NCBI RefSeq assembly: GCF_000507185.2
Contig: NZ_AYTM02000002.1
Location: 3,941,501-4,005,500, forward strand
Direction: 5' to 3'
Length of the DNA: 64,000 nucleotides
From: Pseudomonas syringae KCTC 12500
Lineage (GTDB): Bacteria > Pseudomonadota > Gammaproteobacteria > Pseudomonadales > Pseudomonadaceae
Shown here piece after piece: positions 24,772-26,832 of this stretch. The notes beneath the pieces are model-generated. The model worked only from the letters and a program-made list of their open reading frames with translations. It did not search any database and was not told the origin of the DNA. Position 1 is the stretch's first letter; every line of letters begins with the position of its first letter. Both the position numbers and the translations under genes were made by a program.

Positions 24772-25590
24772 TTGTAGCCGCGAACTTGTTCGCGAAGGAG
24801 TCGATGCATTTCCTGCGTCAGGAATAGCGCTTTCGCGAACAAGTTCGCTCCTACAGGTTATCCGCGAGCTTTTGTAGGAGGAATAGCGCTTTCGCGAACA
24901 AGTTCGCTCCTACAGGTTATCCGCGAGCTTTTGTAGGAGCGAACTTGTTCGCGAAGAGGTCGGTGCAGTCGATGCATTTCCTGCGTCAGGAATGGCGCTT
25001 TTGCGAACAAGTTCGCTCCTGCAGGTTATCCGTGAGCTTTTGTAGGAGCGAACTTGTTCGCGAAGAGGGCGGTGCAGTCGATGCATTTCCTGCGTCAGAA
25101 ATAGCGCTTTCGCGAACAAGTTCGCTCCTGCAGGTTATCCGCGAGCTTTTGTAGGAGCGAACTTGTTCGCGAAGAGGGCGGTGCAGTCGATGCATTTCCT
25201 GCGTCAGGAATAGCGCTTTCGCGAACAAGTTCGCTCCTGCAGGTTATCCGCGAGCTTTTGTAGGAGCGAACTTGTTCGCGAAGAGGGCGGTGCAGTCGAT
25301 GCATTTCCTGCGTCAGAAATAGCGCTTTCGCGAACAAGTTCGCTCCTGCAGGTTATCCGCGAGCTTTTGTAGCGAACTTGTTCGCGAAGAGAGTGGTGCA
25401 GTCGATGCATTTCCTGCGTCAGGAATAGCGCTTTCGCGAACAAGTTCGCTCCTACAGGTTATCCGCGAGCTTTTGTAGAGGCGAACTTGTTCGCGAAGAG
25501 GGTGGTGCAGTCGATGCATTTCCTGCGTCAGGAATAGCGCTTTCGCGAACAAGTTCGCTCCTACAGGTTATCCGCGAGCTTTTGTAGGAG
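24772..25590. repeat. tandem array of ~109-bp paired-REP units
   Basis: Each unit has a forward REP (TGTAGGAGCGAACTTGTTCG), a spacer with the small hairpin TTCCTG-CGT-CAGGAA, an inverted REP (CGCGAACAAGTTCGCTCCTA), and a joint GGTTATCCGCGAGCTTT. Regular units begin at 24932, 25041, 25150, 25259, 25368, 25474 and 25583; the period is 109 except 106 where GGA is lost. A degenerate unit begins at 24772 and a short deleted unit at 24873. The last unit is split by an IS110-type element and resumes at 26769. REPs with a GTAG head are typical substrates of RAYT transposases; no RAYT gene is in the window. Confidence 0.92.
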
Positions 25591-25613
25591 ATTCTATGGT
25601 TTTGGGAAAGCCC

Positions 25614-26561
25614 TCAAGCCACTTTTGTTTGATATTCGCTCTGGTTCTTTAACAGAGCGAAGACTACTCGAGCCAACTTTCGGGAGAGCATGACCAGCGC
25701 TTGAGTTGTACTAAAGCCACGCTTTCTCTGCTCTTCATAAAAAGGCTTCCAGGCCGGCGTACGGCTCCCGGACATAGCCGCGTTGTGCAGCAACCGTCGG
25801 GCTTCTGGATCGCCGCGTTTGGTCAATCGACGAGGTCCATCACTTTGCCCTGATTTGGATACTCTCAGGTCCAGCCCAAGAAACGCGATAAAGGCGTTCG
25901 CTCCGCTGAACTCGCCTCGCTGAAAAGAAGTGACCAAACGAGCTGCAGTCAGAAAGCCGATCCCCTCTACTTTCATACAGCGGTTGACCTGCCTCATCAG
26001 CCCGGCTTCCTGCAGTACATCGCGAATCTTCTTTTCAACGAGCGCCTCAAATCGTTTCATCGAGTTGACCTGATTGGCGAACGCTGTTCTCAGAAAAGGC
26101 TCGTTGGTCCAGCTTTGTACCAGGCCAGTACGAGCCTGAACCAAGGCTGCACGACGTCGGAACAGGCTCAGAAGCTGCCGATAAAGCGGGCTCGCAGGTA
26201 TCCAGGGCCGCAACTCATCAAGCTCGTTTTTCAGGTATCGGGCCAACAAACGAGCATCTTGGGCATCGGTTTTGGCGCGTATGTTGACGCCTTTACGGTA
26301 ATGACTGAGCTGATAGCCATCCACCATATAAATGTCACAGCCTGCTTCGTGGGCCGCATCCGCGAACAGGACGTGATAGACGTTAGTGGCTTCGATGGCG
26401 ATGGCGCAGCTGCTCGCCAAGGCCTTCAGCCATTGGGTGATGGCGACTTTGGTATTGGGGATTGCCTCAAGTCGATCATATTGATCGTGGTAGATCACCA
26501 GCTCATTCTTGGCGACATCTACACCGATGATCGGTTTTTGCAGAGTAACCCGCATTGCCAT
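25614..26561 (-). CDS. IS110-family transposase (bridge-RNA-guided recombinase)
   Basis: A 315-residue DEDD recombinase. The RuvC-like N-terminal domain has D15 (IGVDVAK), E57 (IEATN), D99 and D102 (KTDAQDA). The C-terminal transposase_20 domain contains VEGIGFLTAARLV, AFLGLDLR and the serine-bearing HNAAMSGS (probable nucleophile near S264). ATG at 26561 is preceded by an excellent ribosome site, GAGGAGGCGTT. The frame is intact, so the element may be active. It is transcribed leftwards, downstream of the predicted bridge RNA. Confidence 0.95.
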   Translation of the reverse strand: MAMRVTLQKPIIGVDVAKNELVIYHDQYDRLEAIPNTKVAITQWLKALASSCAIAIEATNVYHVLFADAAHEAGCDIYMVDGYQLSHYRKGVNIRAKTDAQDARLLARYLKNELDELRPWIPASPLYRQLLSLFRRRAALVQARTGLVQSWTNEPFLRTAFANQVNSMKRFEALVEKKIRDVLQEAGLMRQVNRCMKVEGIGFLTAARLVTSFQRGEFSGANAFIAFLGLDLRVSKSGQSDGPRRLTKRGDPEARRLLHNAAMSGSRTPAWKPFYEEQRKRGFSTTQALVMLSRKLARVVFALLKNQSEYQTKVA

Positions 26562-26587
26562 AACGCCTCCTCGGGGATAAGGTTTAC

Positions 26588-26757
26588 AGACTTGAAGGGG
26601 CCACCCAGAGGCGCAGGCTTGTTTCTATCGTAGGTTGTGAGCCTTAAGCATTCTTTATCGGCGCTTGGGTGAAAGGAGGAGGGGTGAAATCTCCTACGGG
26701 TCTGTACTGCGCGAACAGTCAGAAGCGAACTAAGTCCCTCCTCCTCCCTTCAAGTCT
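26588..26757 (-). ncRNA. predicted IS110 bridge RNA
   Basis: About 170 nt on the transposase strand, closed by a perfect 12-bp stem: AGACTTGAAGGG (26757-26746) with CCCTTCAAGTCT (26599-26588). Inside are two arms. The target arm is closed by AGGAGGAGGG/CCCTCCTCCT (26745-26736 and 26683-26674) and holds AGTTCGCT (26731-26724), a TCTG/CAGA stem, and GTAGGAG (26697-26691). AGTTCGCT equals the left target strand and GTAGGAG is complementary to the right target CTCCTAC, exactly the REP site occupied. The donor arm is closed by CACCC/GGGTG and GCGC/GCGC (26671-26661 and 26614-26602) and contains AGAAT and ACAAG, matching the element's own ends. The size resembles the known IS621 bridge RNA. Confidence 0.85.
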
Positions 26758-26766
26758 TACCATACA

Positions 26767-26832
26767 AGCGAACTTGTTCGCGAAGAGGGCGGTGCAGTCG
26801 ATGCATTTCCTGCGTCAGAAATAATGCTTTCG
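26767..26832. repeat. remainder of REP array after the IS
   Basis: From the AG core at 26767 the interrupted REP unit continues: CGAACTTGTTCGCGAAGAGG, the spacer with TTCCTG-CGT-CAGAAA, and then a degenerate end near 26832 that lacks the inverted REP. It proves that the array existed before the IS110 element arrived. Confidence 0.88.

Follow-up and report, generated by a model that had tools for sequence, protein, structure and literature searches.

An IS110-group insertion sequence in Pseudomonas REPs with a predicted leader bridge RNA whose guides agree with their targets across lineages

The bridge RNA of IS621 was established by Durrant et al. in 2024 with covariation on 5,511 RNA–target pairs, and ISPpu10 is drawn in an Extended Data figure among the elements with predicted guides (PMC11208160); the structure is given in a companion paper (PMC11208158). 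Reports that ISPpu9, ISPpu10 and ISPa11 insert into REPs go back to 2006, with 7/7 ISPpu9 and 7/7 ISPpu10 copies located in REPs of Pseudomonas putida (PMC1525189). Control of ISPpu9 by sRNAs was described in 2021 (PMC8450116), and natural redirection in the IS1111 type, together with reprogramming in both types, in 2024 (PMC11187229).

The window analysed here (that is, the whole stretch of 64,000 nucleotides) holds on its minus strand what is very probably a complete and probably active IS110-group insertion sequence with a leader bridge RNA that guides insertion into REPs. Given that IS621 targeting is established and the ISPpu10 prediction published, this is a known kind of element and not a new mechanism. 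It represents a natural Pseudomonas case consistent with bridge-RNA targeting to the single-base level, and its predicted guide RNA is unusually legible: it reads out the REP that was entered, and in most relatives a changed guide accompanies a changed repeat.

The element and its landing site

The element occupies 25591–26768 on the minus strand, including one CT core (26767–26768), and its limits are set by the host genome itself (G000; 6.15 Mb, two contigs), in which six full-length copies have the same 1178 bp in common and diverge beyond the REP. The genome holds seven copies, six full-length and one rearranged, all of them flanked by CGCGAACAAGTTCG on the left and CT-CCTAC on the right, with different sequence farther out. 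The minus-strand order at the locus is TTCGCGAACAAGTTCG-CT, TGTATGGTAAG...CATAGAAT, CT-CCTACAAAAG; the left target AAGTTCG (26769–26775, minus strand) is the 3′ arm of a REP hairpin, and the second CT core (25589–25590) and the right target CCTAC (25584–25588) together span 25584–25590 on the same strand. A sequence-only reading of this DNA had proposed a complete IS110 element at this place, and the six full copies bear this out, with boundaries between the AAGTTCG-CT and the CT-CCTAC of a REP. A tandem REP array (24879–25590; 6.6 copies of a 109-bp unit) stops where the element starts; each unit contains paired REPs, with a 95% match, and some units have deviant REPs (for example, CTCCTGC). 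The seventh copy (L007/L008, G000:C2:23555-24811), which was examined separately, has about 80 bp directly duplicated inside the 3′ part of its transposase gene, and its transposase protein match ends at residue 290.

The transposase (25614–26561, minus strand; 315 aa) has the DEDD_Tnp_IS110 and Transposase_20 domains (PF01548, 6.3e-21; PF02371, 1.1e-16), scores 173.6 bits against NF033542 (cut-off 140) and is homologous to IS621 (8wt6_A, E 1.2e-20, HMMER) and to ISCro4. Its residues D15, E57, D99, D102 and S237 align with the catalytic residues of IS621 in the HMMER alignment to 8wt6_A, a correspondence that uses an inferred two-residue numbering offset of that chain. The non-coding stretches measure 207 nt upstream of the gene (core included) and 23 nt downstream of its stop codon, and the element ends TGTATGGT and ACCATAGAAT have, by eye, a 6-bp inverted match in common. 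With both domains, a long upstream non-coding region and no long subterminal inverted repeats, the element belongs to the IS110 group; the subterminal inverted repeats of IS1111 elements are given as 7–17 bp in the literature.

A predicted two-armed leader RNA

The leader is predicted to encode an RNA of about 170 nt (26757–26588, minus strand) in which a three-way junction joins a target arm and a donor arm. Its minimum free energy (MFE) is −68.3 kcal/mol, compared with −48.7 (s.d. 3.9) for dinucleotide shuffles (z −5.0), 0/200 of which fold as well. The fold that had been proposed by eye, with a 10-bp arm stem, is present in the MFE structure: the closing stem P1 pairs 26746–26757 with 26588–26599, and the outer stem of the target arm pairs AGGAGGAGGG (26736–26745) with 26674–26683, all on the minus strand. 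Between the two target guides stands an apical hairpin (26701–26723, minus strand; 91.4% of cells paired, 2/9 pairs double-changed). In the MFE folds of 36 distinct relatives (window included), the closing stem appears in 36/36, the target-arm stem in 35/36 and the apical hairpin in 33/36, the target guides being partly paired in many of them. Conservation among relatives, on which the sequence-only reading had staked the fold, is thus found for both stems, and the target-arm stem also covaries. The 12-bp closing stem is indeed perfect in the window, but only 7/12 of its pairs are invariant among the 36 sequences, the other five being often broken or changed; because these seven never vary, the closing stem says little on covariation.

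The two halves of the target-arm stem vary jointly (AGGAGGAGGG/CCCTCCTCCT, GGTGGGAC/GTCCCACC, GGAGGGAC/GTCCCTCC and GGGCGGGAC/GTCCCGCCC). When the structure was taken from the window's own fold and the alignment then fitted to that structure, double changes were found in 18/42 pairs, a number that 0/500 shuffles reach, and in 8/10 pairs of the target-arm outer stem; further pair types showed no excess in this alignment (127/500 shuffles have as many). The unfitted alignment has double changes in 9/42 pairs (33/500 shuffles as many), including 2/10 in the outer stem, and a covariation score of 0.084 (1/500 as high), with further pair types below every shuffle (500/500 as many). With a MAFFT alignment as input, in which two subgroups were misaligned, RNAalifold distorted the target arm for that reason and still placed double changes in 5/31 pairs. 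Together, fold and alignments point to a structured leader RNA with two arms that would resemble a bridge RNA.

A covariance-model search had matches in 34/34 genomes (weak in G091, with G004 outside that search), largely by construction because the model derives from sequences in these same genomes, and Rfam contained no match to the leader RNA at gathering scores. Seven covariance-model matches, which had no transposase among the transposase matches listed (best seven candidates per genome), were candidates for orphan bridge RNAs. The five examined give no evidence of such RNAs: two in G216 lie beside full-length transposase matches, those in G251 and G204 beside broken ones, and G039:C2 is at a contig end with no transposase in view; the two outside these five (G039:C27 and G123:C15) start within 82 bases of a contig end. 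Decayed relatives were also seen, with a shortened bridge RNA in G091 (L029) and, in G251 (L150) and G204 (L153), an RNA next to a broken transposase gene.

Target guides and REPs across Pseudomonas

The left target guide of the window element (AGTTCGCT, 26731–26724, minus strand) consists of AGTTCG and the core-binding CT, and the right target guide (26697–26691, minus strand) is GTAGGAG, the complement of CT-CCTAC; counted with the core, they are 8 and 7 nt long. Both, like AGAAT and ACAAG in the donor arm, lie where the sequence-only reading had placed them. Its description of the left guide as a copy of the left target and the CT core stands for six target bases and the core (AGTTCG-CT is found at 7/7 own copies), but one base before these the RNA has T where the target has A. 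The two motifs in this order, with GTAGGAG at any point of the 207-nt leader downstream of AGTTCGCT, arose in 1/40,000 dinucleotide shuffles, for motif lengths that were the reader's choice. Judged from the sequences, the target guides would complement both target strands, core included.

For comparison, 298 Pseudomonas genomes were searched, 40 of which had a transposase match at E ≤ 1e-60, with at least 134 places in these 40 genomes among the matches listed (best seven candidates per genome). We used 115 loci in 35 genomes, yielding 113 copies with both ends in 34 genomes; the two loci without a usable left end are L062 (contig edge) and L029 of G091 (decayed). All places in G005, G009, G022, G236 and G282 were left out, as were 14 places within the genomes that were used (fragments, additional G213 and G124 copies, and the rearranged copy of the window's own genome); L009 duplicates L002. 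The 113 copies were grouped as 35 genome-and-guide units with 13 types of left guide, and their transposases are 49–100% identical to that of the window. All 113 have the ends CTTGTATG and CATAGAAT, a uniformity that is partly by construction because the search words were CTTGTATG and ATAGAATCT, yet only 2/115 loci failed. A contig search returned one relative, in P. gingeri, and plasmid records contained no relative of at least 60% identity, only relatives below 60%. The longer relative in G080 (L036, L102–L106) measures 1371 bp, some 195 bp of which are additional and separate the transposase from the right end, and has an unusual GCCGCC in left guide and target alike; in G066 (G066:C45:124217-126694; L027/L076), two copies about 1350 bp apart have an identical left flank.

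Across the 35 units, guides match their own targets at 0.875 versus 0.724 when permuted (highest 0.792; 0/20,000 reach the observed value), and the 13 left guide types match theirs at 0.836 versus 0.599 when swapped between types (0/50,000), both sets of permutations ignoring relatedness. A transposase tree of the 35 units places 16 changes in the guides and 17 in the targets. Independent pairs on this tree differ at position −3 in the same way in 4.4 cases and the opposite way in 0.0, with no difference in 0.6, and at position −6 in 3.9, 0.2 and 2.9, respectively; the contrasts in this tree-aware test all point the same way, but the pairs are too few for significance at any one position, and many guide differences occur without an accompanying target difference. 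Insertion at other targets with unchanged guides, which the sequence-only reading had named as the observation that would speak against it, is not the rule given this agreement beyond permutation, although there are misfits (for example, G066 and G212).

On the left side, guide and target are identical in G070 (AAGCCGG), in G062, G010 and G123 (AGGCTCG, as in 4/5 copies each of G273 and G110), in G232, G251, G260 and G052 (AAGCCCG, as in 5/6 copies of G182), in G039, G159, G124 and one G289 unit (AAGCTCG), in G295 (AAGCCAG, 5/6) and in G080 (AGCCGCC, 6/6); the guide CAATTCG of G018 faces NNATTCG (5/5), and TAGTTCG of the window's own genome faces AAGTTCG (6/6). Guides one base off are AGGCTCG against AAGCTCG (G266, G204 and one G289 unit), a difference that a G–U type pair could cover, AGACTCG against AGGCTCG (G215, G011 and G253), AAGCCCG against AAGCCCC, at the last base (G004 and 3/4 copies of G138; that is, 4/5 G138/G004 copies), and ATGCCCG of G216, which is one base off mixed targets; AAGCTCG has a mixed fit in G099 and in G213 (1/3 exact in each). 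The fit is poor for CAGTTCG, the one guide common to G066 and G212, which faces AAGCTCG, AAGCCCG and AGGCTCG, for ATACCCG against AAGCCCG in G244, for G127, in which the register is off by one base (match 0.25), and for G185, with its odd flank. In this last case (L017), where the guide mismatches the left flank, a CTCCCACATTTGGTAG stretch is seen in both flanks, as if there had been a loss or rearrangement nearby. At the core, the left guide has CT in 1/35 units (the window lineage only), AT in 28 and CA in 6, and only CT matches both bases; the single core-base mismatch in the other lineages may be a functional feature.

On the right side, the window lineage sets GTAGGAG against CTCCTAC in 6/6 copies. 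This guide is exclusive to the window unit among the 35, which is also the only unit with CCTAC at all copies and the only one with a joint right-side change (from G to A in the RNA and from C to T in the REP). The guide of the remaining 34 units is GTGGGAG, except GTGAGAG in G080, and their target is CTCCCAC, except one of four G138 copies (CTCTCAC) and one of two G253 copies (CTCCTAC); with these exceptions, the right-side evidence comes to one joint change, one guide-only change (G080) and little else. The proposal that the right guide complements the core and right target fits every unit but for one mismatch in G080. When the right target of G080 was predicted from the RNA alone, CTCTCAC was expected and CTCCCAC is read, one base wrong.

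Potential landing sites were counted as exact 13-base matches; the counts cover 13 of the 34 genomes, except for one pattern counted only in G216 and one only in G000, and include neither the G070 and G080 targets nor those of most G138 copies. Intact AGTTCGCTCCTAC sites number 126 in G000 versus 0–4 in the 12 other genomes, and AATTCGCTCCCAC sites 134 in G018 and at most one elsewhere. The remaining classes are AGCCAGCTCCCAC (363 in G216, 314 in G295), GGCTCGCTCCCAC (543 in G273, 310 in G212, 300 in G039, 6 in G000), AGCCCGCTCCCAC (639 in G039, 398 in G295, 375 in G251, 311 in G244, 306 in G212), AGCTCGCTCCCAC (350 in G039, 270 in G251, 122 in G212, 104 in G066, 80 in G000) and AGTTCGCTCCTGC (13 in G000). 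The other REP classes in G000 are unoccupied by its seven copies (P = 0.017 if copies are independent). Eight such within-genome tests, two of them on G216, gave four values below 0.05 and four not, all hand-picked and uncorrected.

These insertions could also be attributed to a transposase protein that recognises the REP hairpin, with a leader RNA that only regulates translation of the transposase, as the sRNAs and 5′-UTR do in ISPpu9. In nearly all copies the left flank contains the REP hairpin arm, the leader of ISPpu9 and its antisense sRNA control translation (PMC8450116; regulation and guidance by one leader would be compatible), and the G066 and G212 copies occupy REPs poorly fitted by their guide. 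Against this, the guides change across lineages along with the bases by which the REPs differ, 0/7 copies of G216 are found at its 363 AGCCAG-type sites (P 0.025) and 3/3 usable copies of G039 are in the AGCTCG class, which makes up 27% of the counted sites (P 0.02), the latter two tests being small, hand-picked and uncorrected; we consider recognition by protein improbable. Less probable still is an inherited agreement, in which elements and REPs would each have followed the phylogeny of the host and would not pair functionally: in the genomes counted, most targets belong to REPs that are common in the genome concerned, and rows are related whereas the permutations ignore relatedness, but the agreement holds at individual bases, on the strand and in the register that pairing would require, with 16 guide changes on the tree, donor guides are nearly constant while target guides vary, and, despite more than one abundant REP class in several genomes, all or most copies of G039, G251 and G295 are in the guide-matching class.

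We tentatively suggest that repeated small guide steps track the REPs of each host lineage, so that retargeting of the IS would be coupled to REP evolution in the host, a possibility that we rate as somewhat less likely than not. G212 is a counter-example to guide tuning to host REPs: it has three abundant REP classes with one copy apiece, and its guide is a poor fit to all three.

Donor arm, proposed mechanism and known systems

In the donor arm, the putative left donor guide AGAAT (26650–26654, minus strand) is identical to the right end of the element, CATAGAAT, and the putative right donor guide ACAAG (26618–26622, minus strand) is the complement of the core and left end (CT-TGT); the donor sequence of the element would be AGAATCTTGTATG. 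Both motifs fit the element's own ends, as had been claimed, except that no CT-core match follows AGAAT, the RNA having GC there. Among the 113 copies, the left donor guide is AGAAT in 80 and GGAAT in 33, and the right donor guide ACAAG in 87 and GCAAG in 26; because the ends are invariant in these copies and were also the search words, the match to AGAAT-CT-TGT is a fit and not covariation. Following the IS621 model, AU after the right target guide (26689–26690, minus strand) is a candidate handshake dinucleotide, which would complement the last two bases of the left donor (AT); the corresponding dinucleotide is AC in 53 copies, AT in 49, AA in 6 and AG in 5. The donor-arm candidate is a C (26617, minus strand), the complement of G at target position −1. 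This base after the right donor guide forms a Watson–Crick pair with target −1 in 108/113 copies (C where the target has G, 102 copies; G where it has C, 6 copies, G080), and in G138/G004 a U stands unpaired against C in four copies and forms a G–U pair in one; the handshake base data amount to one informative switch (G080) and one contrary lineage (G138/G004).

By analogy with IS621, from which we infer expression of the RNA, the circle, the protein–RNA complex, its chemistry, donor pairing and the handshake, the bridge RNA from the 5′ leader would be bound by a DEDD/serine recombinase, and transposition would most likely proceed through a circle closed at the CT core. The donor arm would pair with the element's own joined ends, AGAAT-CT-TGT, and strand exchange at CT would leave one CT at each end. 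The suggestion that the element follows the logic of IS621 is supported by guide–target agreement, a conserved fold and a homologous transposase. As for a REP specificity in Pseudomonas, the targets are REPs, but the novelty is weaker than the sequence-only reading implied, as the literature already contains REP insertions and a predicted bridge RNA of ISPpu10. An open-literature search of partial coverage, with ISfinder outside the comparison, returned no title on this element family. What appears to be new, as far as the sequences go, is a tight natural retargeting series in one family with constant ends; new also is a left guide with a full match to the core, which among the 35 units is confined to the window lineage. 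As a set of 13 natural guide types whose targets are known, whose ends are identical and whose proteins are related, the series is useful for measuring which positions and mismatches in the guides count, and landing sites are abundant in one genome (126 exact ones in G000).

Among described systems, ISPa11 of P. aeruginosa (IS1111 group) resembles the window element in targeting REPs, in its type of transposase and in having been studied as a guide-RNA element, but IS1111 elements carry the guide RNA downstream of the transposase gene, with the guide halves in the other order. ISPpu9 of P. putida KT2440 belongs to the IS110 family, has a long 5′-UTR and occupies the same REP target position as ISPpu10; unlike the window element, it is flanked by the sRNAs Asr9 and Ssr9 (PMC8450116, in the main text of which the word 'bridge' is absent). 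IS621 of Escherichia coli has in common with the window element the DEDD and Transposase_20 domains, a leader bridge RNA, a CT core, the logic of left and right guides and REP targets, yet it is distant in sequence (E 1.2e-20), its RNA has a 5′ stem-loop ahead of two arms whereas one stem closes both arms in the window RNA, and its guides, counted with the core, measure 9 nt (left) and 4 nt (right) compared with 8 and 7 nt here. ISPpu10 (IS110 group, P. putida KT2440), compared by description only, is like the window element in lying in REPs with a 2-bp direct repeat (7/7 copies) and in having a published predicted bridge RNA, the loops of which complement target and donor.
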